Of a DNA stretch of 27,531 nucleotides, positions 54 to 14,870 are shown one piece after another; the first letter of the stretch is position 1; each line of letters starts with the position of its first letter. A program made the position numbers and the translations under genes. The notes under the pieces were generated by a model. That model ran no database searches and was not told the DNA's origin. It saw only the letters and a list, made by a program, of their open reading frames with translations. The stretch comes from a virus. Location: positions 1-27,531 of IMG/VR virus record IMGVR_UViG_3300046530_000050. One strand, written 5' to 3'.

Positions 54-280
54 AATGAGTCCGCCATTTTTCGAAGCGCCTGCCGCTCGCCGCGGCTCAT
101 GGCCTTGGGGCGACGCTTTAGGATTGTTTCGGGGTCGATCGTTTCTTTCCTGGCCGGGGCCGGCTTGAACTGAAACGACTCTAGAATCTGGACGGTCTTG
201 CCGCGAGCTATGAAAGCCTCGCGGGCGGCATCGATCCGAGCCTGCTCCTGCTGAAGGGTAAAGGTTCTAGATGTATTCAT
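50..280 (-). CDS. Small charged hypothetical protein of the leftward operon (76 aa)
   Basis: A 76-residue protein that I cannot assign to a family. It is highly charged: residues 8-40 are probably helical, and the C-terminal third is rich in Lys and Arg (LKRRPKAMSRGERQALRKM). Its ATG overlaps the stop of the exonuclease gene (ATGA at 277-280), and its own stop overlaps the next gene's start. It is therefore translated as part of the recombination operon. No membrane segment or signal peptide is visible. A recombination accessory role is suggested by position only. Confidence 0.7.
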   Translation of the reverse strand: MNTSRTFTLQQEQARIDAAREAFIARGKTVQILESFQFKPAPARKETIDPETILKRRPKAMSRGERQALRKMADSL

Positions 281-1920
281 GCGGCCACCTTCACCAGCCT
301 CACGCCGGCCATGCTGAACTTGGCGCCTTGCTCGGTGACAAGTGCGTCGAGCTTTTCCCAGTCCACCGCCAGCATCGATATCGGGGCTTGGCCGTATGCC
401 ACGGCCTTGATCAGCGCTTCGAGATCGTAGACTTCGGCCTGCATCGCTACCGGCTGGCTGGCTTGCACTGCAACTGGCTTCGAGGCTGCCTGAACGATTA
501 GAGCTGCTTTCGCCGGTGCAGGTGTCACAACGGGAGCAGGCTCGGCAACGGTCGCGGCAAGTGCTTTCGCCTTTGCTTCGTCTTCGATCCGCTGCAGCTC
601 TTCTTCGCGGATGCGTTTACGAGTGGCCTCGGCCTTTTCGTTTTCGGCTTTCTGATGCTCCGAGATCCGGACCTTGATCAGCGCGACCAGATCATCGTTC
701 GCTTTCAGCACCAGTTGCTGGAGGTCGTTAAACAAGAATGGATGGTTTGCGGCGAGCTCGTCATAGCTGGCCAAGTTGGCTCGAATGCTGTCGCCAACCT
801 GGCTGGCGGCGATCTTCGCGCGAGCCAGTTCCGAATCGGCGGCATCACGCAGACTGCTGATGGACTTTTTGCCCTTGATGGCGCCGGCGAAGTCTGCCGG
901 TATCGCTGGCATGCGGGCCTTGCCACCCAGCGAGGTATTGATCTGGTCGATATGCGTCTGTAGCGCCTTGGCTGCGTCCATGACGATGTCTTCACGGATG
1001 CTGACCTTGCGGGCTTTGACCAGTTTGTCGAGCATCAGGCGTTTGTTGCGTGCCTCGGCGCTGATCTCATCGATAGTGCGGAAAAGCGCGTCGATGCTTT
1101 CGGTCTGACTCAGCGCATGCTGCTTGGCTGCTGCCAGTCGCTCTTCGACATCGCCACACCATTTGACGGTCTTCTCGGCGTCAGCGAAGTGCTGGTCGGT
1201 TTCCAGAACGGTGTTGATTGAATCGAAGACGGCCAGCGAGTGAGCCTTGAACTGCTCCAGGTTGCTGGCGGTTACCATGCCGGTGACTTCGATACGCAGC
1301 GCCGGCAGGCTGTCCGGCGTCTTTCCGACGGCTTCTGGCACGACTTCGACCGGCGTGAAGTCGAGCAAGTCGGCTTGGAACTGTTTCCATCCGGCAATGA
1401 GTGTCGCGGCGCGGCCAGGCACCGGTGTGTATTCCATCGACACGAAATTGTCTTCGGTCCCATCGGAGCAAACGAAGATCACTTTCTCGGCGCCACTCAC
1501 CAGCAGTTGCTGCTCAAGCTGCCAGTAGTAGTGCGGGTCCAGGTTGCCGGCCAGTACGTCGGCGGCGAGCTGCTCGTTCCACATTTTGTGCTCGAACAGT
1601 GTTTCGCCGAGCATGGTGCAGCCGTCGAGCGAGGCGAGCAGGTCGCCGTCGGTGCCCACGACGGGGAAAAGGTCCTCGCCGATCCGCGCTTCCAGAATTG
1701 GCCGAGCCAGGGCTTCAGCTTCATGGCCTTTGTCGAACAGGTATTTTTGTACCCACCACGATACGTCGCGGTCGAGGCCGGTCTTTTTGGCGCTAAGCAG
1801 CTCGGTGCGCTTCATCTGTTTCGAGGCGCCCATCATGGCCGGCGCCTCGGAGGCGGTGAAGTAGTTGGCGCGGAGCGCATGCCAGGCTTCGGAGCCTTGG
1901 ATTACCGAATGAATTTTCAA
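277..1920 (-). CDS. YqaJ-family phage exonuclease with long C-terminal extension
   Basis: A 547-aa protein whose first ~170 residues match the YqaJ/lambda-exonuclease fold of the PD-(D/E)XK nucleases. I see the N-terminal GSEAW..R segment (9-17), a GHEAE motif (65-69) that fits the first acidic site, Asp99 in SLDG, and E110-H-K112 as the ExK signature. The family digests one strand of double-stranded DNA ends so that an annealing protein can pair the exposed strand; the partner here is the adjacent ERF gene. The remainder (~180-547) is a long helical, Lys/Glu-rich region with an Ala/Pro/Val linker near 455-500. That is much longer than the ~200-220 aa of lambda Exo. ATG overlaps the ERF stop (ATGA, 1917-1920), implying coupled translation. 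Assignment of the nuclease domain is confident; the tail's function is unknown. Confidence 0.88.
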   Translation of the reverse strand: MKIHSVIQGSEAWHALRANYFTASEAPAMMGASKQMKRTELLSAKKTGLDRDVSWWVQKYLFDKGHEAEALARPILEARIGEDLFPVVGTDGDLLASLDGCTMLGETLFEHKMWNEQLAADVLAGNLDPHYYWQLEQQLLVSGAEKVIFVCSDGTEDNFVSMEYTPVPGRAATLIAGWKQFQADLLDFTPVEVVPEAVGKTPDSLPALRIEVTGMVTASNLEQFKAHSLAVFDSINTVLETDQHFADAEKTVKWCGDVEERLAAAKQHALSQTESIDALFRTIDEISAEARNKRLMLDKLVKARKVSIREDIVMDAAKALQTHIDQINTSLGGKARMPAIPADFAGAIKGKKSISSLRDAADSELARAKIAASQVGDSIRANLASYDELAANHPFLFNDLQQLVLKANDDLVALIKVRISEHQKAENEKAEATRKRIREEELQRIEDEAKAKALAATVAEPAPVVTPAPAKAALIVQAASKPVAVQASQPVAMQAEVYDLEALIKAVAYGQAPISMLAVDWEKLDALVTEQGAKFSMAGVRLVKVAA

Positions 1921-2774
1921 GATGCGTCTCCTTCTTGTGATGGTGCGATGATTGCGAGGATGGTTTTTTTCTGGTGCTCGGTTAGAGATGCCTTAAGCCC
2001 GAGCATCACGACGATGTGTTCAGCTGTTTTTTGTCCGCTCAGAATCATGGCGACCCACTTTGGGAAGTTCTCGGTGAACTTTTCGGGTGGATACGGGGGA
2101 AGGGCTTCAGGCTCTGGTGGTAAAACCTCAGTGGGAGTAGCTCCCGAATTCCCGTCATCGTCGTCATCGGTCGTGGTGACATTGAAAATCATCTGGGTCA
2201 GGTATCGCCGGCCGTAGCTGATCGTCGAGCCGTTCGCTTGCACACCGGTTTTGTTTGTCTTGCCGCCAGAGCCTGCGGCGTCGATCGGAAGGTCAAGCTG
2301 ATAAAGCTTCGTATGGCCGCCGGCGTGCATGCATTCACAGGTGACGCGAAGGTGACCAGGCAGACGAGAATCGGCGGTGCCGAAGGACAGGGAAAAACCT
2401 TCCTCGGTGAAGATCGGGCTGATCGCTCGGTCGATATCTTCGAGTCTGGCGTAGGTGCTGGCGGTGTGTTTGTTGAGCGCGTTGCGCGTCACGGGCTTGA
2501 TTCGCTTCTGCGCGCTGACCATTGCGACGCTGAATGCTGCCGAAGCCTGTCGGTCGACGTGGCGCTCGTGCATCTGCATCAGCCGCTCCATGTTTCCGAC
2601 ATCGACATTCGGATTGGCGGCGACCTGGATGATTACGGCCATGATGCTGGCAGCATCGTTAGATTGAGCTGCAACCTCGGTTACGACATTGGGTGATCGG
2701 CGCTGATCGATTGTGGTGACCACGCTCGACTCGACACCCTCCACAACTTGGCTGGGTTTACGCTCTGCGGACAT
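1917..2774 (-). CDS. erf: ERF-family single-strand annealing recombinase
   Basis: A 285-aa protein with the ERF core at roughly residues 50-190. It includes the N-terminal helical stretch (MERLMQMHERH), the Y-A-x-LEDIDRAI segment, and the conserved G-S-x-x-SYGRRY motif near 170-180 that is diagnostic of ERF. ERF proteins form rings on single-stranded DNA and promote annealing, circularising or repairing phage genomes. The acidic run DDDDDGN separates the core from a Pro-rich, ~80-aa C-terminal tail, which in such proteins often contacts host SSB (inference). The start is supported by AAGGA six to seven bases upstream of ATG. The exonuclease gene overlaps the stop, so the two form a classic exo/annealase pair. 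Confidence 0.9.
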   Translation of the reverse strand: MSAERKPSQVVEGVESSVVTTIDQRRSPNVVTEVAAQSNDAASIMAVIIQVAANPNVDVGNMERLMQMHERHVDRQASAAFSVAMVSAQKRIKPVTRNALNKHTASTYARLEDIDRAISPIFTEEGFSLSFGTADSRLPGHLRVTCECMHAGGHTKLYQLDLPIDAAGSGGKTNKTGVQANGSTISYGRRYLTQMIFNVTTTDDDDDGNSGATPTEVLPPEPEALPPYPPEKFTENFPKWVAMILSGQKTAEHIVVMLGLKASLTEHQKKTILAIIAPSQEGDAS

Positions 2775-3246: not shown

Positions 3247-3431
3247 GCCTCCTTGCGCTGCTGGCAAATGTTTCGCAGCCGCTTGCAGTAATGGTTGAAC
3301 TCGTCAGAGGTGATCGCACCGTCGGTGAACAGGCGTGTGATCAGCTCCTGGACCAACAAGCTGATGTCCTCTTGGCCGAAGGGTGTGGCCACGCCGTCGA
3401 GGGCTTGATCGATCAGGATGTGCGGGCTCAA
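3243..3431 (-). CDS. Small hypothetical protein (62 aa), probable TTG start
   Basis: It reads (M)SPHILIDQALDGV and ends CQQRKEA. It is largely helical, with two Cys in the C-terminal half. Two starts are possible. A GTG at 3440 lies on top of the AGGAG ribosome site; a TTG at 3431 sits eight bases after AGGAG and overlaps the preceding stop as TTGA. I prefer the TTG because its spacing is normal and it matches the overlap pattern of this operon. No family recognised. Confidence 0.65.
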   Translation of the reverse strand: MSPHILIDQALDGVATPFGQEDISLLVQELITRLFTDGAITSDEFNHYCKRLRNICQQRKEA

Positions 3432-3856
3432 AATCCGCACTCCTGCTCAAGTCGATCTTGTTCCTCCTGAAACGCAACGGCCTTGGCCGCGTGAGGCTTC
3501 AGAAGCTCAAGCGCGATACTCTTCAGTGCCGTCTTGGAGCCGAGCAGGTAGATGGCCATGTCCATCATTAGGCTGGATGTGCTGTAACCCAAGGCGGCGA
3601 TCACCAGTTGGCCGAGGGCATCTTTCTTGTCCTCGCCGTCGATCTGGCGCTGATTCACATGGTCCTGTACAGCCTTGTAAAACTCGGCCTGGGTCACCTC
3701 ACCGCGATCTGCACGGATACCCCAGCTGACGACAAAGCCGCGCATCAGGTTTTCCGCGTTCTCTTCCAGCCATTGAATCTCTGCCAGGTCGTCTTGGCTC
3801 ACCGGAGGCGGAAGAAGGTTGTCGTATTGGAACTGAGCCTTGCGTAGTGCTGACAT
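3428..3856 (-). CDS. Hypothetical early protein (142 aa), first gene of the short-gene run
   Basis: The ATG at 3856 follows GGAGG by five bases, which decides the start; an upstream in-frame ATG (3904) has no ribosome site. The protein begins MSALRKAQFQYDNLLPPP. It contains a central helical region with VSWGIRADRGEVTQAEF, a segment (about 85-115) rich in Ala, Leu and Met that is only moderately hydrophobic, and an acidic C-terminal helix with EEQDRLEQE. I recognise no catalytic motif. It is the first visible gene downstream of the presumed PL leader and begins the chain of overlapping ORFs leading to ERF and YqaJ. Confidence 0.75.
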   Translation of the reverse strand: MSALRKAQFQYDNLLPPPVSQDDLAEIQWLEENAENLMRGFVVSWGIRADRGEVTQAEFYKAVQDHVNQRQIDGEDKKDALGQLVIAALGYSTSSLMMDMAIYLLGSKTALKSIALELLKPHAAKAVAFQEEQDRLEQECGF

Positions 3857-4041
3857 GGTCGCCTCCAGAGTGGCGGATGTTGATCCAACAAAACTCGGCT
3901 GCACTCATCCGTTCCGCTGGTTGCCGTTGGGCGCGGAGGGGAGTGCATGCGGGTGGTGTCGGGCGGGATGAGTGATGTTCGCGGCCTGAAAACTTGCCGC
4001 TACACTCGTTTTGGTCGTTTTAATTAATTTCGGAGACGCCA

Positions 4042-4365
4042 ATGGACCTGATCATCCGCTTAGCTCTTTGCGTCTCCCTGCTGGCTTTTGGAGCAAGCAC
4101 AAGGGCTGTAGAGAACGGCGGGGAAAGCGCCTTGGCGCTCCTCGTCACTGCGAAGTTTTCCGGTGGATGCGGAATCATCACGCAGATGGCCGCCTTCCAG
4201 CAGACAACCAAAATGCGTGGTGGCGACGAGTTCCTTGAGCGATTTATCAATACCGAATCTGCCCGGCTCGGTATGACGCTGAAGCAGTATCTCGAGCAAT
4301 GTCGCAAATCGTCTGAGGTTTATCAGTCCTATTACGACGAGATTGAGCGGGCGCCGGCCCCGTGA
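4042..4365 (+). CDS. Small exported protein, cargo gene
   Basis: A 107-aa protein with a clear signal peptide: basic-poor start MDLIIR, a hydrophobic core LALCVSLLAFGAS, and a probable cleavage after TRA near residue 22. The mature part has two cysteines (SGGCG and LEQCRK) that could form one disulphide. GGAG six bases before the ATG supports the start. It lies on the plus strand, opposite to the whole leftward operon, so it is antisense to the presumed PL transcript and must have its own promoter. This is typical of a cargo (moron) gene expressed in the lysogen. I do not recognise the family. Confidence 0.75.
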   Translation: MDLIIRLALCVSLLAFGASTRAVENGGESALALLVTAKFSGGCGIITQMAAFQQTTKMRGGDEFLERFINTESARLGMTLKQYLEQCRKSSEVYQSYYDEIERAPAP

Positions 4366-4374
4366 CTTCATTGA

Positions 4375-4407
4375 AGCCCAGACCCGCTACTGGCGACGGT
4401 CTGGGCT
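4375..4407. repeat. Inverted repeat after the exported-protein gene
   Basis: AGCCCAGACC (4375-4384) pairs perfectly with GGTCTGGGCT (4398-4407) across a 13-nt loop. It follows the stop of the small exported protein by nine bases. No T-run follows on either strand, so it may be a weak or Rho-assisted terminator or an mRNA 3'-end stabiliser. Confidence 0.6.
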
Positions 4408-4483
4408 GGTGGTGGCGCTTTGCCGCTGCTAATCTCGGTTAATTGCTACTCTCGCGGTATAGCCAGGGAATGGGCTTCTCCAT

Positions 4484-5128
4484 ATGGACGCCAAGATCCT
4501 CAAGAAACATCAGCGGTTAAAAATGGCCACGGAATCCAGCGAAAAGCAGGAAGTTGCCACTAGCCCTCATGTGCCAGGACAAGGATTCAGCGAGGAATCT
4601 GAAAAATTCTTTGCCAGTGTCGCGGCCAAGAAACGTGAGGACCTTCAAAACCAGGCGTCTCAGGATGGAAGGCCTGAGCCTTCCCAAGCCCCAAGGCCTG
4701 ATCACGAACTGGATAGGGTGACGCTACAGCTGAGAAGAGAATTTGCTTTGCTCAATAGGATCTTCGAGCTTCGCGAAATAGCCCTCGATCGCAGCAAAAA
4801 GAAACTGAATCGCAAGGCTGCGAAGGCCGCTATAAGAGAGGCGAAAAAGGCTGGTAAGAAGCCCAATACTTCTAAGCCTGTCCAGCAGCCCAAGGGGGCA
4901 ACGCCGTCGATGCAGGAGCAAGTTTCTAAATGGATTCGAAAAGTCTGCTGGCGCTGTAATTCACAATTTTCAATTTGTGCCGACTGGGAAAGGCCGCCAA
5001 GCCTATGCAAAGCATGCACTAAGGACCTCGACGAAACTCATCTTCCTTCTGGCTTGGATCGATCAACACCTTTTGCCAAAGTCCACTTCGTGAGTGGTGG
5101 CGCTCCCGGCTCAGGTAAGCGCCGATAG
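4484..5128 (+). CDS. Zinc-ribbon-like hypothetical protein (214 aa), cargo gene
   Basis: The N-terminal ~75 residues are polar and low complexity. The middle (about 80-145) is a highly basic helical stretch (SKKKLNRKAAKAAIREAKK). Residues ~165-190 hold a C-x2-C (CWRC), one further Cys (SIC) and a second C-x2-C (CKAC), which is the layout of a zinc ribbon. This suggests nucleic-acid binding; no known family is recognised. A C-terminal GAPGSGK resembles a P-loop but sits at the very end without a domain, so I give it no weight. The ribosome site is weak (AGGGA well upstream). It is antisense to the presumed PL transcript. Confidence 0.65.
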   Translation: MDAKILKKHQRLKMATESSEKQEVATSPHVPGQGFSEESEKFFASVAAKKREDLQNQASQDGRPEPSQAPRPDHELDRVTLQLRREFALLNRIFELREIALDRSKKKLNRKAAKAAIREAKKAGKKPNTSKPVQQPKGATPSMQEQVSKWIRKVCWRCNSQFSICADWERPPSLCKACTKDLDETHLPSGLDRSTPFAKVHFVSGGAPGSGKRR

Positions 5129-5278
5129 CTGCACTCCGGTTGTTTTCCGAAAGCGCCTGATACAGGCGCTGACGTGAAAGCTTCTGGTACTGCCGGCGAC
5201 CCGCAACTGGCGTCGGTCACCGGCCTTCTCGTTTTTCGGTGCGCTTTGGATACCACCTGGACCATGCCCAGTTCGCAC
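5111..5278 (-). CDS. Possible short basic protein in the PL leader (55 aa, GTG start)
   Basis: A short ORF begins with GTG at 5278, nine bases after GGAGG (5288-5292). It encodes a strongly basic peptide (starts MRTGHGPGG, then many Arg/Lys, e.g. IRRFRKTTG). It is the first leftward ORF downstream of the PL-like promoter, where an N-type antiterminator or another short basic regulator would be encoded in lambda-like phages. Against it, the tail overlaps the end of the convergent zinc-ribbon gene by 18 bp, and a second overlapping minus-strand frame (from ATG 5265) is also open. Low confidence. Confidence 0.3.
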   Translation of the reverse strand: MRTGHGPGGIQSAPKNEKAGDRRQLRVAGSTRSFHVSACIRRFRKTTGVQLSALT

Positions 5279-5440
5279 TCTGTTGTTCCTCCGACCGCGA
5301 CCCTGTCCGCCGGATAACTCGATTTGGCGCTTTACGCTGCACGCCCGGGTCAGTTGCCAACCCTCTGAACCGTTAAGGCCGGTTCATCGCTGCCTTTGGA
5401 TCTGGGCCGGTGGTGATCCGGCAAGGTGAGGCGGTATCGC

Positions 5441-5449
5441 TAAAGAGCG
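5441..5449 (-). promoter_or_regulatory. boxA-like element of a putative nut site
   Basis: Reading leftward the sequence is CGCTCTTTA, which matches the boxA consensus of antitermination sites. It lies about 40 nt downstream of the predicted PL start point, much like lambda nutL. About 19-35 nt further on, the transcript can fold GCCGG-N7-CCGGC, which might act as a boxB, although lambda-type boxB loops are five bases. Match and position are seen; function is inference. Confidence 0.45.
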
Positions 5450-5494
5450 GCGCGACTTTCGCTGCTGGGCCCGTGATGTCTTGGCTTGGACTTA

Positions 5495-5523
5495 AATATA
5501 AGCCAGCTTATTTTATCAGTCAA
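5495..5523 (-). promoter_or_regulatory. PL-like leftward early promoter
   Basis: On the minus strand TTGACT (5523-5518), a 17-bp spacer and TATATT (5500-5495) form a near-consensus sigma-70 promoter. One repressor operator (5498-5511) lies within it and another abuts the -35 box. The predicted start near 5488 would feed a leader and then the leftward operon to ERF and YqaJ. Confidence 0.75.
5498..5511. promoter_or_regulatory. Operator OL1-like
   Basis: ATAAGCCAGCTTAT has perfect 6-bp arms around two central bases. It shares ATAAGC-N2-GCTTAT with the strongest right operator (7939-7952) and lies between the -35 and -10 boxes of PL, overlapping the latter, so CI or Cro binding would block that promoter. 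Confidence 0.75.
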
Positions 5524-5536
5524 TAAGCATGCTTAT
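5523..5536. promoter_or_regulatory. Operator OL2-like
   Basis: ATAAGCATGCTTAT is a perfect 14-bp palindrome of the same family, with its centre 25 bp from OL1. It touches the upstream edge of the PL -35 box. Two sites are visible here against three in the right operator; I see no third nearby match. Confidence 0.75.
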
Positions 5537-5554
5537 ATATTTTTGAGTGGACGA

Positions 5555-5580
5555 TAAAAAGCCCGCTCAATGGCGGGCTC
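5555..5580 (-). terminator. Leftward terminator after DUF1654 gene
   Basis: On the minus strand AGCCCGC, a six-base loop, GCGGGCT and a five-T run form an intrinsic terminator. It begins four bases past the DUF1654 stop and insulates the PL region just downstream. Confidence 0.85.
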
Positions 5581-5583
5581 ATT

Positions 5584-5835
5584 TCAGGCTTCGCAGTACT
5601 CTCGCCACCCGATCCTTACCGCGCCGCTCTCAAGGCGCTCCATGCGTACACCGCTGGTTTCTTCAATTTCCTGAAGGACTTGCTGCCATGCTTCAGCGGG
5701 TTCTGCTTCAAGCCTGGTCACGGTTATGGCCTGCACCTTTTGAACGCCAGGCGCAGCTATCAGGCGCTGGATGCGCCGACCAACCAATTCATATGAGTCT
5801 CTGGCCTGTGATGCGGGTGACGCGATTTTTGACAT
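5584..5835 (-). CDS. DUF1654 protein, probably SOS-induced
   Basis: An 83-aa protein that fits the DUF1654 family of pseudomonads and their phages. It has a short N-terminus MSKIASPASQ, then DSYELVGRRIQRLIAAPGVQKVQAITVTRLE and a Glu-rich C-terminal half with QEIEETSGVRMERLESGAVRIGW. AAGGAG six to seven bases before the ATG fixes the start; a longer in-frame start at 5895 lies across the promoter and is rejected. Its biochemical role is unknown to me. A LexA-like box overlaps the predicted -10, so it is likely repressed by host LexA and switched on by DNA damage, in parallel with prophage induction. It sits in its own cassette with a terminator 3'. Confidence 0.8.
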   Translation of the reverse strand: MSKIASPASQARDSYELVGRRIQRLIAAPGVQKVQAITVTRLEAEPAEAWQQVLQEIEETSGVRMERLESGAVRIGWREYCEA

Positions 5836-5854
5836 AGGAAGCTCCTTGCTAATA

Positions 5855-5870
5855 CTGGTTATATATACAG
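5855..5870. promoter_or_regulatory. LexA-type SOS box
   Basis: Reading leftward the site is CTGTATATATAACCAG, i.e. CTG-N10-CAG with an AT-rich centre, as in gamma-proteobacterial LexA boxes. It overlaps the predicted -10 (TACTGT) of the DUF1654 promoter, ending 20 bases before the start codon. Confidence 0.7.
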
Positions 5871-5895
5871 TATTGCTGCTGCCATATTTTGGCAA
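5867..5895 (-). promoter_or_regulatory. Promoter of the DUF1654 gene
   Basis: On the minus strand TTGCCA (5895-5890), a 17-bp spacer and TACTGT (5872-5867) form a plausible sigma-70 promoter. Its -10 is embedded in the SOS box. Confidence 0.6.
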
Positions 5896-5954
5896 GAGAC
5901 ATGTCCTATCTTGTTCGGAAGTAGGAGGCTGGCACGCACCTTTTCTCCGGACAC

Positions 5955-5979
5955 AAAAAAGCCCGCGCTTAGCGGGCTC
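5955..5979 (-). terminator. Leftward terminator after the 72-aa gene
   Basis: On the minus strand AGCCCGC-N5-GCGGGCT followed by six T. The stem is the same as in the terminators at 5555-5580 and 6584-6606. It lies about 40 bases past the stop of the 72-aa gene and separates it from the DUF1654 cassette. Confidence 0.8.
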
Positions 5980-6016
5980 GTACTCTGTTGCGTATATCAG
6001 GAGGAAGTCGCCTCGA

Positions 6017-6235
6017 TCAGTCCGATCTCTGAGTCTTCAGCCTGGCCAAGCCCTGGTTGATATGCCCCGCATTTTCACGGATCGTATCCAGCGCTCCACG
6101 AACATTACCGCCGATCTCGATCGCTCCTTGGCTCTCAACCAGCAACGTCAGCTCCATAATGGCAGCCTCTAGGGCGTTTTGATTTTCATGCATGCGCTCA
6201 AGGACATCAGGAAGAGAATATTCGGGGGTAGGCAT
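6017..6235 (-). CDS. Small helical protein, paralogue A (72 aa)
   Basis: A short acidic, helical protein (MPTPEYSLPDVLERMHENQN...). GGAG eight bases upstream of the ATG supports the start. It aligns without gaps, at roughly a quarter identity, to the next gene upstream (6323-6544). Shared positions include NQ, QGA/EGA, a later R..R-x-NA pattern and a terminal LKT or LLKT. The pair therefore probably arose by duplication. No domain or function is recognised. A leftward terminator follows. Confidence 0.7.
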   Translation of the reverse strand: MPTPEYSLPDVLERMHENQNALEAAIMELTLLVESQGAIEIGGNVRGALDTIRENAGHINQGLARLKTQRSD

Positions 6236-6322
6236 GGCTTCGACTCCATTCGAGGGAGCTGAAAGCGTAGCAGCGGAGGAGGGAAAGGAGAAAGCCCAGA
6301 GTGGGGCGGGCTCATGTAATTT

Positions 6323-6544
6323 TCAGTGCACGCTCTCATCCGTCTTGAGCAGCTCAATAATCGCTTTATCCATGGTTTCCGCGTTGAATCTCAGATCGCC
6401 AACACGAACCCTAAGCTTCTGTGCTGTCTCTGTTGCGCCTTCCTTTTCCATCCAGGCCGCAATCTCTTCGAAGGCTTCGCCGATCATCATCTGATTCAGT
6501 TGAAGGCTGGCTAGCACGGCGGGAAACAGTTTTGGGTGGGCCAT
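6323..6544 (-). CDS. Small helical protein, paralogue B (73 aa)
   Basis: Begins MAHPKLFPAVLASLQLNQ, after GGAGG at eight bases. It is predicted to be two or three helices with the conserved core IAAWMEKEGATET. It is related to the downstream 72-aa protein at about 13 identical positions over the shared ~50-residue core. An insulating terminator lies just upstream of its start (6584-6606), so it must have its own promoter. Its location between PL and cI, where lambda carries rex genes, suggests expression in the lysogen. Function unknown. Confidence 0.7.
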   Translation of the reverse strand: MAHPKLFPAVLASLQLNQMMIGEAFEEIAAWMEKEGATETAQKLRVRVGDLRFNAETMDKAIIELLKTDESVH

Positions 6545-6583
6545 GGTTCATTCCTCCAACAGGGCATTGGGCGTGTAGACAAC

Positions 6584-6606
6584 AAAAAGCCCGCACGTGG
6601 CGGGCT
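6584..6606 (-). terminator. Leftward terminator ending the cI/lipoprotein transcript
   Basis: On the minus strand AGCCCGC, the loop CACGT, GCGGGCT and five T. It is upstream of the paralogue B start, so it would stop transcripts arriving from the lipoprotein and cI genes. Confidence 0.8.
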
Positions 6607-6800
6607 CTCTGTCGAAGGGGGCTGATCCATCAGCTATCGTCAGTGTAGATGGCGTCCGCCGGGGTGCAAGGCAGAATGAAACAGCCCGACGCTGGGATAT
6701 TGATCAGAATACGCGATCGAGTATTTTGTCTCGGATAGCCTGGTCATCTGCAATCCGCCCTGGCATCGAGGAGCGGCATCCGACAGAGCGTGTATTTGAT
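6607..6800. other. Gap without a supportable gene
   Basis: About 190 bases between the lipoprotein stop and the terminator. A 63-codon minus-strand frame crosses it and runs into the lipoprotein gene, but it has no ribosome site and no plausible protein character. I see nothing else. Confidence 0.5.
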
Positions 6801-7127
6801 CTATTTTGCTAAGACTGCACGTTGGAGCCAATTCCGTCTTTCTGCTTTGGTGCAGCGTATCGAATCCATACGCCGGCTAAGTGCTAGGGATTTCGAAGGG
6901 TCAAAAGGCTTGAAAGCAGCAGAAAACCCGTTCACGCCGGCAACATCCCGCATTTCAAAAAAAAGCAGATCGCTGAGATTTTTGCATTGCTCCAGCCGAT
7001 CAGCCTCAGTGGTGGGCATCGGCGCCGAGTCAATTTGCTTCTCGAATTCCGTTTTTTCCTTAGGTGCGCTGCTGCAGCCAGAAAGGAGTGCCGCCAGCAA
7101 GAGGCCAGCAGTCTTTGGCATGCGCAT
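6801..7127 (-). CDS. Predicted lipoprotein downstream of cI
   Basis: A 108-aa protein with a classic lipoprotein signal: MRMPKTAGLLLAALLSGCSS, the lipobox being LLSGC with Cys18 lipidated. I chose the start at 7127 because GGAAGTGAAG lies directly upstream and the signal begins immediately; longer in-frame starts exist up to 7187. The mature part is polar, with two more cysteines. It follows the repressor gene on the same strand, about 95 bases downstream, so it is probably co-transcribed from PRM and made in the lysogen. Lysogen-expressed envelope proteins of this type often serve superinfection exclusion; that is inference, and no family is recognised. Confidence 0.75.
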   Translation of the reverse strand: MRMPKTAGLLLAALLSGCSSAPKEKTEFEKQIDSAPMPTTEADRLEQCKNLSDLLFFEMRDVAGVNGFSAAFKPFDPSKSLALSRRMDSIRCTKAERRNWLQRAVLAK

Positions 7128-7222
7128 CTTCACTTCCATTTGAAATATCATTCCTTCAACGCGAATGCATCGCCCACCAGAACACATGTCCCAGAATCAA
7201 AATCTGCTGTTGGACTATCACC

Positions 7223-7879
7223 TTAAAACTTCTGCAGAGCGCGAACTACAACACCAACGATCCGACAGTCCTCATTGAACGGTTCGATTCGCCAGGCTGG
7301 ATTCAGCGGCTTCAGGAAAAGTTTTCCACCATCGTTGACCAGCTTCTTGAATGTCGCCTCATTGCTGTCTGGCAGCTTGGCGATCACCAGCTTTCCGGGT
7401 GTTGCTTCAGCCTCGGTGTCCACCAGGATCAGCGTGCCTTCTGTAACGCTTTGGCCGACAGGTGAGGTCATTGAGTCACCTTTGACCTCAAGCCAAAACG
7501 CGGCGCCCTTAGAGTCGTATTCGGAAAACTCGTATCGATCAGAGAATCCTGCAGGGTAGGGCTCAACAGCTTCAGCCCAGGCGCCGGCGGCGACCCAGCT
7601 GATAACCGGGTAGCGATAGGATTCAACGGGTTGGCGAGCGTCGCTTACGTTTGAGTCGACAGCGCTCGAGCCAGTCATTGGCCCAATGTTCTCGGATAGC
7701 CAAATAGCGTTCACCCCGCACACATGTGCAATTTTTGGCAGGTGTGCGCTTTGAAGGTTCTTTCCTGTCTCCAGCTGTGAAATCACCGGCTGCTCGACCC
7801 CCACCTTTAAGGCGAGGGCCTTCTGCGTCAGCTTGGCGTGATTTCGTGCGGATTTGATTCTTTCGGCGAGTGTGCTCAT
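7223..7879 (-). CDS. cI: CI-type self-cleaving prophage repressor (XRE + S24)
   Basis: A 218-aa repressor. Residues 4-61 form an XRE helix-turn-helix (RIKSARNHAKLTQKALA..VEQPVISQLETGK). Residues 90-215 are an S24/LexA-like peptidase domain: scissile A98-G99 in WVAAGAW, nucleophile Ser136 in KGDSM, and general base Lys178 in TFKK. RecA filaments formed after DNA damage should trigger self-cleavage and induction. The start is set at the Met beginning MSTLAERI; an upstream extension would cross an operator. There is almost no leader before the ATG and no good ribosome site, which suggests a leaderless PRM message as in lambda. It is divergent from cro across three operators. Confidence 0.92.
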   Translation of the reverse strand: MSTLAERIKSARNHAKLTQKALALKVGVEQPVISQLETGKNLQSAHLPKIAHVCGVNAIWLSENIGPMTGSSAVDSNVSDARQPVESYRYPVISWVAAGAWAEAVEPYPAGFSDRYEFSEYDSKGAAFWLEVKGDSMTSPVGQSVTEGTLILVDTEAEATPGKLVIAKLPDSNEATFKKLVNDGGKLFLKPLNPAWRIEPFNEDCRIVGVVVRALQKF

Positions 7880-7886
7880 CCGCTGG

Positions 7887-7915
7887 AATTTATAAGTTCC
7901 CTTATCGGCTTGCAA
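7887..7915 (-). promoter_or_regulatory. PRM-like promoter for cI
   Basis: On the minus strand TTGCAA (7915-7910), a 17-bp spacer and TAAATT (7892-7887); an alternative -10, TATAAA (7894-7889), has shorter spacing. The start point would fall at or within a few bases of the cI ATG at 7879. The leftmost operator (7892-7905) overlaps the -10 end. Confidence 0.5.
7892..7905. promoter_or_regulatory. Operator OR3-like
   Basis: ATAAGTTCCCTTAT has 5-bp arms around four central bases. It lacks the extra G/C pair of the strong sites and is closest to cI, over the PRM -10 region, so it occupies the lambda OR3 position. Confidence 0.7.
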
Positions 7916-7938
7916 ATAAGTGTCCTTCTACTTAGAAT
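7910..7938 (+). promoter_or_regulatory. PR-like rightward early promoter
   Basis: TTGCAA (7910-7915), a 17-bp spacer and TAGAAT (7933-7938). One operator lies in the spacer and one immediately after the -10, so repressor binding would block it. It drives cro and the genes to its right. TTGCAA is its own reverse complement, so the same hexamer can serve PRM. Confidence 0.7.
7916..7929. promoter_or_regulatory. Operator OR2-like
   Basis: ATAAGTGTCCTTCT matches the operator consensus with one mismatch in the right arm. Its centre is 24 bp from the OR3-like site and 23 bp from the OR1-like site. It lies in the PR spacer. Confidence 0.6.
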
Positions 7939-7952
7939 ATAAGCAGGCTTAT
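7939..7952. promoter_or_regulatory. Operator OR1-like
   Basis: ATAAGCAGGCTTAT has the 6-bp arms shared with both left operators, and directly follows the PR -10 box. It is probably the highest-affinity site of the right operator (inference from arm length). Confidence 0.75.
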
Positions 7953-7967: not shown

Positions 7968-8180
7968 ATGACCCCTATCGAAAGGCTCGTCGACTTCTTC
8001 GGCGGGCAAACCAAAACAGCTTTGGCGCTCGACGTTTCCCAGGCCGCAGTTTCGTACTGGGTGGCCGGGATTCACCCGATGGGCGCCGAAAAGGCATTCA
8101 AGGCTGAAGAGTTGACCGGTGGAAAAGTTACTGCGCGTGAGCTGTGCATGCGAACGAAGCGGTCCCAATCCGCCGCTTAG
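7968..8180 (+). CDS. cro: Cro-like repressor (YdaS/Cro-type helix-turn-helix)
   Basis: A 70-aa DNA-binding protein, MTPIERLVDFFGGQTKTALALDV and so on. The helix-turn-helix spans about residues 12-35 (QTKTALALDVSQAAVSYWVAG), followed by a helical C-terminal part that ends in a basic tail. AGGAGGG seven bases before the ATG supports this start. It is the first gene of the rightward early transcript and is divergent from cI, which identifies it as the Cro equivalent. It should bind the same ATAAG-N4-CTTAT operators and shut down PRM during lytic growth. YdaS-like proteins of this size have been called toxins in some annotations; the context favours Cro. Confidence 0.85.
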   Translation: MTPIERLVDFFGGQTKTALALDVSQAAVSYWVAGIHPMGAEKAFKAEELTGGKVTARELCMRTKRSQSAA

Positions 8181-8261: not shown

Positions 8262-8684
8262 ATGGAAGATTTTCTGCGGGCCTGCCAGTGCGCTGTTCTG
8301 GATAACGAGGCAAAGGCTCTGGCAGCAAAGATGGGCGTTCCGCACGTCGGTCTGCTTCAGCGCGCTAACCCTGACAACGATGCTCACCACCTGACCGTGG
8401 AGCATTTGTTCGGGATCTTGCTGCACACCGGCGACATGCGCCCCTTGGTAGCTCTGGCGAATGAATTCGGTTTCGACCTGGTATCGAAGGCAGCACCGGA
8501 GCCGCAAGCGCTGACCAGGTCATTGATCAATGTAGGCAAAGAGGTGGCCGATCTGACCATCGCTGTTCACCAAGCGCTCGACGATAACCACGTCAGCACT
8601 TTCGAGAAGTCCCTGATCCGCCAAGAAATCAGCCATGTTCGCCAGAGCCTGGATGTGATGGATGCGTCGGTGAAGGCGGCTTGA
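8262..8684 (+). CDS. CII-like regulator (phage CP76/CII family)
   Basis: A 140-aa protein with the N-terminus MEDFLRACQCAVLD, an LAAKMGVPHVGLLQRANPDN segment and TVEHLFGILLHTGD. I associate this with the Phage_CP76 / CII-like family of regulators that resemble a degenerate helix-turn-helix. The C-terminal half (about 85-140) is helical and may oligomerise. GAGG eight bases before the ATG fixes the start. Position directly after cro is that of lambda cII, so it may decide lysis versus lysogeny by activating cI. A terminator follows four bases after its stop. Confidence 0.7.
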   Translation: MEDFLRACQCAVLDNEAKALAAKMGVPHVGLLQRANPDNDAHHLTVEHLFGILLHTGDMRPLVALANEFGFDLVSKAAPEPQALTRSLINVGKEVADLTIAVHQALDDNHVSTFEKSLIRQEISHVRQSLDVMDASVKAA

Positions 8685-14277: not shown

Positions 14278-14478
14278 TTACCTGTAGCCAGGACAGCCTT
14301 CGGGAAGATCTGGACGTCGATAGCCGGATAGTGCGACGTACGGAATCAACACCGGCAGCCCGCGCACCCTGACCTCACATGCTGCAAGGTGGCGCGAGAC
14401 TGAATCAGCGAGATCGATGCAAAGGGGCGTCGACGTAGAGAAAGTCTTCGGCGGACAGGCGTGGAAAGACACGCGCAC
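14278..14478 (-). CDS. Possible small protein (66 aa, GTG start)
   Basis: The frame from GTG 14478 (or the GTG two codons later) reads MRVSFHACPPKTFSTSTPLCIDLADSV and ends GYRRPDLPEGCPGYR. The composition is protein-like, with four cysteines, but the ribosome site is poor (GAGG ten bases away) and an opposite-strand frame is also open. It is offered as a candidate only. Confidence 0.35.
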   Translation of the reverse strand: MRVSFHACPPKTFSTSTPLCIDLADSVSRHLAACEVRVRGLPVLIPYVALSGYRRPDLPEGCPGYR

Positions 14479-14546: not shown

Positions 14547-14870
14547 ATGCCACACATGCCAGAAAAAGACCCGTCGTTCTGGGTGTTGGTACTGACCGCC
14601 CTGAGAGAGAACGGCTTAGCCATGGGGCTGACCTTCGCCCTGACATGGCTCCGCATTCAGTACGATGGCAAAGAGACGAAACCTTTGCGTCAATTGATCG
14701 AGGCGGCGCTCGGTGCGCTGATCGTCATGGTGGTTGGCCTGACGGTGAAAGAGTTCGGCTTCAGCATTGCCTGGTCATTCGCAACGGCGGGCTTCATTGG
14801 CGTGCTCGGTGTTGAGCAGGCCCGTCAGCTCGGCAAGCGCTGGGCTGAAAGAAAGGCTGACGAAATCTAG
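14547..14870 (+). CDS. Lambda S-like holin
   Basis: A 107-aa holin, the same length as lambda S107. It starts MPHMPEKD, close to lambda's MKMPEKHD, and has three hydrophobic segments near residues 20-38 (LRENGLAMGLTFALTW), 50-68 (AALGALIVMVVGLTV) and 72-90 (FSIAWSFATAGFIGVLG), with a charged C-terminal tail QARQLGKRWAERKADE. Holins accumulate in the inner membrane and open lethal holes at a programmed time, releasing endolysin or collapsing the membrane potential. GGAGG eight bases before the first ATG supports that start; a second ATG three codons on could give a shorter product. No endolysin gene is adjacent. Confidence 0.85.
   Translation: MPHMPEKDPSFWVLVLTALRENGLAMGLTFALTWLRIQYDGKETKPLRQLIEAALGALIVMVVGLTVKEFGFSIAWSFATAGFIGVLGVEQARQLGKRWAERKADEI

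Follow-up and report, generated by a model that had tools for sequence, protein, structure and literature searches.

Which regulator reads the repeated palindromes that surround the early promoters of a temperate phage, and to which known switch do they belong? The question is raised by the virus contig IMGVR_UViG_3300046530_000050 of IMG/VR (positions 1 to 27,531; this whole stretch of 27,531 nucleotides is called the window below), which carries five 14-bp sites, two (OL1 and OL2, left operators) at the leftward early promoter PL and three (OR1 to OR3, right operators) between the divergent cI and cro genes, at the rightward promoter PR and the likely promoter for repressor maintenance (PRM). 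An earlier note on this DNA had taken them for the CI operators of a lambdoid switch with an operator sequence of its own, and this proposal is supported by the overlap of the sites with promoters, by the conservation of sites and spacings, and by phylogenetically independent co-variation with the recognition helix of CI. As judged from sequence comparison, the five palindromes very probably (about 0.93) serve as operators for a 434-type CI repressor of a Pseudomonas phage. The elements concerned are as follows.

5495 to 5500, minus strand: PL -10 hexamer TATATT, 17-bp spacer (promoter scan); the downstream ATT is almost fixed in relatives
5498 to 5511, unstranded: OL1, ATAAGCCAGCTTAT, overlapping the PL -10 hexamer and the spacer
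5518 to 5523, minus strand: PL -35 hexamer TTGACT (promoter consensus scan); TTGAC is fixed in relatives, partly by construction, since it was part of the filter for the left-pair set
5523 to 5536, unstranded: OL2, ATAAGCATGCTTAT, sharing one base with the PL -35 hexamer
7223 to 7879, minus strand: cI, encoding a repressor with an HTH_3 domain (Pfam, 1e-9) and an S24 peptidase domain (Peptidase_S24, 4e-26), recognition helix VEQPVISQLE and an Ala-Gly cleavage site in WVAAGAW
7889 to 7894, minus strand: likely PRM -10 hexamer TATAAA (sequence reading)
7892 to 7905, unstranded: OR3, ATAAGTTCCCTTAT, beside cI and upstream of the PR -35 hexamer, overlapping the likely PRM -10 hexamer
7910 to 7915, plus strand: PR -35 hexamer TTGCAA (promoter scan), between OR3 and OR2; TTGC is fixed and AA nearly so in 66 distinct regions
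7916 to 7929, unstranded: OR2, ATAAGTGTCCTTCT, occupying most of the PR spacer, its centre at about -41 from the likely PRM start
7933 to 7938, plus strand: PR -10 hexamer TAGAAT, 17-bp spacer (promoter scan)
7939 to 7952, unstranded: OR1, ATAAGCAGGCTTAT, abutting the PR -10 hexamer and covering the PR start point
7968 to 8180, plus strand: cro, encoding a Cro-like repressor of 70 aa (YdaS_toxin/P22_Cro families), helix SQAAVSYW

A motif scan of the window found all five sites where the earlier note had placed them, and OL1, OL2, OR3 and OR1 match ATAAG-N4-CTTAT exactly, OL2 being a perfect 14-bp palindrome. The claim that all five fit this consensus holds for these four, and OR2 is a near fit that departs from it at a single base (C for A at position 13). 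The arms measure 6 bp in OL1, OL2 and OR1, 5 bp in OR3 and less than 5 bp in OR2, and the centres lie 25 bp apart in the OL pair and 24 and 23 bp apart in the OR trio. Four exact matches were counted in the 27.5 kb of the window, all of them at OL and OR; 100 dinucleotide-preserving shuffles gave a mean of 0.00. When up to two mismatches were allowed, 10 matches were obtained against 3.4 +/- 1.9 expected; the additional loose matches at 2301, 13411, 13550, 19107 and 27246, with 1-2 mismatches and no promoter context noted, were set aside as background. A third left operator, such as the OL3 of phage 434, was sought beside OL2 and none was seen.

Abundance of the motif at unrelated places had been set beforehand as a refuting test. 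The window is a virus contig without a host, and the host scans used other Pseudomonas genomes carrying related prophages. In five such genomes (6.2-7.0 Mb) the exact motif occurs 4-6 times, four of these being the prophage sites, and a reversed control pattern occurs 3-6 times. The refutation fails because the host genomes hold almost no copies outside the prophage.

To follow the sites through relatives, viral-contig scans with CI and Cro were combined with one scan of named genomes, which yielded 160 CI loci and 80 Cro loci; all the hosts found with ATAAG-type sites are Pseudomonas. Comparison of 66 distinct OR regions showed the ten consensus (outer) bases to be invariant in OR1 and in OR3 while flanks and core bases vary, and among the consensus bases of OR2 only positions 12-13 vary, C at position 13 being present in 80 of the 102 distinct regions of a wider set. 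The OR spacers measure 10 and 9 bp in 100 of these 102 regions. Of 102 pairs at the left side, 100 are separated by 11 or 12 bp, and the ten consensus bases are fixed across 100 distinct left pairs, a set in which a minority comes from other phage groups with an unrelated repressor. Chance palindromes in an intergenic stretch, which is A+T-richer than the window as a whole (57% GC), can be dismissed for practical purposes, given that no exact match was expected in the shuffles and that the sites are fixed at constant spacing in more than 60 distinct, diverged relatives.

The sites also coincide precisely with two promoter-like sequences, of which the region has few. Three spaced operators separate the divergent cI and cro genes, and sites of the same kind stand at a leftward early promoter that serves recombination genes, Erf and RecE being encoded on that strand. 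Palindromes near promoters might equally be SOS/LexA boxes, terminators or targets of some other host regulator, but this explanation is very improbable, because the sites are almost missing elsewhere in host genomes and follow the phage CI helix and not the host. At least two ATAAG sites lie upstream of cI in 85 of 85 loci whose CI has the helix QPxISQ, and no such site lies there in any of the 75 with other helices. Phages with the helix QTSIS or QASIS (QTSISD/QASISD) have instead the operator TAYGGG-N4-CCCRTA, in the same 3+2 five-site layout and together with a Cro helix DQSTVSGW; with a strict pattern, TAYGGG sites were recognized at OR in 16 of 21 such relatives. These TAYGGG-type sister phages are represented by loci L159, L192-L202 and L298-L312. 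In the 434 complex, repressor residues 28, 33 and 29 contact operator positions 1, 4 and 2, respectively. In 434 numbering, Gln 28 and Gln 33 are kept in the CI of the window and residue 29 is changed from Gln to Pro, and the half-site is changed from ACAAG to ATAAG, which alters position 2. The TAYGGG group likewise retains residue 28 but has Asp as residue 33, and its operator retains position 1 and differs at positions 3-4.

On a tree of the CI C-terminal domain, at least 12 supported switches into or out of the ATAAG helix class are required, which indicates that the helix-turn-helix (HTH) half has been swapped often. Scored on this tree, all 11 independent pairs show matching helix and OR classes (p = 0.001). 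Helix and OL correspond in every one of 63 loci, although OL lies 1.1-5.5 kb from the cI start, beyond the C-terminal half; the independent pairs number five of five supported (p = 0.06) and nine on the best tree. Such agreement across the C-terminal domain would be difficult to account for if CI did not read OR and OL alike.

Some points weigh against taking these sites as targets of this CI. Recombination could carry the HTH half, the OR sites and cro together as a single linked unit, and for that reason the HTH-OR agreement alone is not independent evidence; the OL agreement answers the linkage objection but rests on five supported pairs (p = 0.06). Moreover, the motif by itself does not prove this CI, because a phage group with an unrelated repressor carries it as well. 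In that group (L007, L016, L022, L023, L040 and similar loci) pairs of ATAAG-N4-CTTAT sites lie at a PL-like TTGAC promoter, and the repressor, of 254 aa and with the helix GVSAPNVTGW, is unrelated to the QPxISQ type of CI; apparently, the same half-site has been put to use independently.

The closest known switch is that of phage 434, and not that of lambda. The 434 CI is 49% identical to the CI of the window over 216 aa, its operators are likewise of 14 bp, with the half-site ACAAG in place of ATAAG, and the arrangement annotated in the 434 record is the same, with OR1 downstream of the PR -10 hexamer, OR2 in the PR spacer, the PR -35 hexamer between OR2 and OR3, and OL1 over the PL -10 hexamer. 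In contrast, 434 has six operators, OL3 included, instead of five, operator position 2 is C in 434 and T here, the likely PRM transcript is almost leaderless here, and the 434 Cro is homologous to its CI whereas the present Cro is of the YdaS/P22 type. The system is therefore 434-like but not imm434, because the half-site is ATAAG and not ACAA and the Cro belongs to YdaS/P22_Cro and is no homologue of 434 Cro. With lambda it shares the trio of OR sites, the presence of more than one OL site, the divergence of cI and cro, and OR centres 23-24 bp apart, but lambda has six operators of 17 bp and of another sequence, and its OR1 is placed otherwise relative to PR. The immB region of phiKO2/N15 differs by its 16-bp operators, a repressor without self-cleavage residues, an OL that controls plasmid replication, and a Cro that binds OR3 only.

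The Pseudomonas aeruginosa phage phi297 (NC_016762) carries five ATAAG-N4-CTTAT sites with the same spacings (24/23 bp in OR and 25 bp in OL), the helix SQPVISQ and a Cro 76% identical to that of the window, so that the operator set is already present in a published genome. Its CI of about 290 aa has another C-terminal domain, however, and its OR2 is fully consensus; the record names promoters at OL but not operators. Descriptions of these operators were not found in the open literature, subscription papers being outside the scope of the search. Work of Hall et al. from 2005 reportedly deals with Cro helices and half-sites and may include relatives.

We infer from this arrangement that the switch would work as follows. 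In the lysogen, CI dimers, presumably pairing cooperatively, would occupy OL1/OL2 and OR1/OR2, thereby blocking RNA polymerase at both early promoters, at PL through OL1 over the -10 hexamer and the spacer and OL2 touching the -35 hexamer, and at PR through OR2 filling the spacer and OR1 lying over the start. Bound at OR2, whose centre precedes the likely PRM start by some 41 bp, CI would probably stimulate its own transcription from PRM, which either CI or Cro would shut off from OR3. The cI mRNA would start near 7882, 3 bases from the ATG (7879), and be almost leaderless; in relatives OR3 lies 11-12 bp from the cI ATG. After DNA damage, RecA-aided self-cleavage of CI at the Ala-Gly site, by its S24 domain, would free PL and PR.

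Cro would be expected to bind OR3 at least, but how many of the operators it reads is a matter on which two answers stand about level, neither quite reaching even odds. CI and Cro may share all five sites with opposite preference, as in lambda and as the title of the earlier note implies. In favour of such sharing, in 79 of 80 loci Cro has the helix SQAAVSYW or TQAAVSYW and the operators are of the ATAAG type, DQSTVSGW accompanies TAYGGG sites, and phi297 retains both Cro and the sites though the C-terminal domain of its CI differs. Nevertheless, cro adjoins OR and may simply travel along, it encodes a protein of another family than CI, and loci devoid of Cro retain the OR sites. In addition, phiKO2 has the same 3+2 layout with five CI operators and yet its Cro, like that of PY54, binds OR3 only (PMC4997575). 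Following that precedent, Cro may read OR3 specifically, with the asymmetric core of this site as a label, and CI may read all five sites. In the 102 distinct regions the OR1 core is C..G in most cases and the OR3 core is mostly TTCC, which in the 66-region set is conserved beyond what the CI consensus requires, and C9 of OR3 is present in 82 of the 93 distinct Cro-bearing regions against 2 of the 9 that lack Cro. On the other side, only a handful of Cro-less loci are available, drawn from one or two lineages; C9 is missing from 11 regions that do have Cro, and even the Cro-less loci show an OR3 unlike their OR1. The idea that C13 of OR2 is a Cro-excluding base was weakened, as the Cro-less loci keep C13 and 18 of 93 Cro-bearing regions lack it.

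The earlier note had further read in the arm lengths the same order of affinities as in lambda. The difference in arm length between OR1 and OR3 is kept in about 100 distinct regions, which makes it real and probably selected. Arm length is nevertheless only a proxy for affinity, the tightest natural site of phage 933W deviating from consensus (PMC3317979), and a lambda-like order of affinities, with OR1 ahead of OR2 and OR3, would be a prediction from it. OR2 is weak for a reason other than arm length, namely its changed outer base.

The Cro-less loci, found in P. entomophila, P. capeferrum and others, consist of CI and three OR sites, with no recognizable Cro and no OL pair. In the P. entomophila locus (L290, 5001-5666 and upstream; L366, 1041-3519) CI is 76% identical to that of the window, and downstream lie an unknown ORF (open reading frame) of 229 aa, an apparent lysozyme-like ORF and a DUF2514 protein; the locus resembles a CI-operator switch retained to serve a lysis-like cassette. 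Its identification as a tailocin was unsupported, since the larger ORFs within the following 20 kb showed no tail genes. We tentatively consider, at somewhat longer odds than either answer on Cro, that an immunity-specificity cassette is at work, in which the CI helix, OR and cro would swap together while the C-terminal domain stays and OL is re-matched each time, Cro would mark the OR3 core, and the lysis-like cassette of P. entomophila would reuse CI and OR without Cro or OL.

The five-site arrangement is thus an ordinary switch of the lambda/434 type whose operator sequence is new, shifts together with the recognition helix of CI in more than a hundred related phages, and has been replicated unusually well by nature. 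It provides a clear operator-repressor pair for a large group of temperate Pseudomonas phages, making immunity groups predictable from sequence. The helix-class changes on the C-terminal tree are natural replicates of how helix residues set operator bases, and the system lets one ask whether a Cro of another protein family reads CI operators.

The genes and signals around the switch are the following.

277 to 1890, minus strand: RecE-like exonuclease, PL operon
1917 to 2774, minus strand: Erf-like annealing protein, PL operon
5437 to 5450, minus strand: boxA-like element CCGCTCTTTAGCGA (also CCGCTCTTTAG) in the PL leader, about 40 nt past the promoter
5559 to 5580, minus strand: terminator-like hairpin just upstream of PL, which would end leftward transcription from the cI side (consensus scan only)
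8262 to 8684, plus strand: CII-like regulator (Phage_CP76)

The Erf and RecE genes and the boxA-like element of the PL leader fit a left operon of the lambda type. The sequence GCTCTTTA occurs in the window solely at this element, and GCTCTTT was present in the first 150 nt of 75 of 99 ATAAG-type and 13 of 14 TAYGGG-type PL leaders and in none at nt 150-300; the boxA-like CCGCTCTTTAG points to antitermination of the left operon by a Nus-dependent route. No boxA-like element was seen between cro and the CII-like gene, which is followed by Rha-type and O-like genes. The hairpin stems from a scan whose total terminator count was not above that of shuffles; its T-run adjoins OL2 in relatives too. 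The nearest leftward gene with a family match (3428-3856) lies about 1.6 kb from PL. In the interval between them (~3860-5490, minus strand) the tested ORFs gave no PHROG match, and this interval may contain an antiterminator or a structured leader. Downstream of cI, two small proteins encoded at 6017-6235 and 6323-6544 (minus strand) both match phrog_12397, a family of unknown function, and are probably a tandem duplication. Finally, a match to Proteo-phage-1 RNA (Rfam RF03044, 74 bits) lies at 14282-14360 on the plus strand, shortly before the holin gene (14547-14870).

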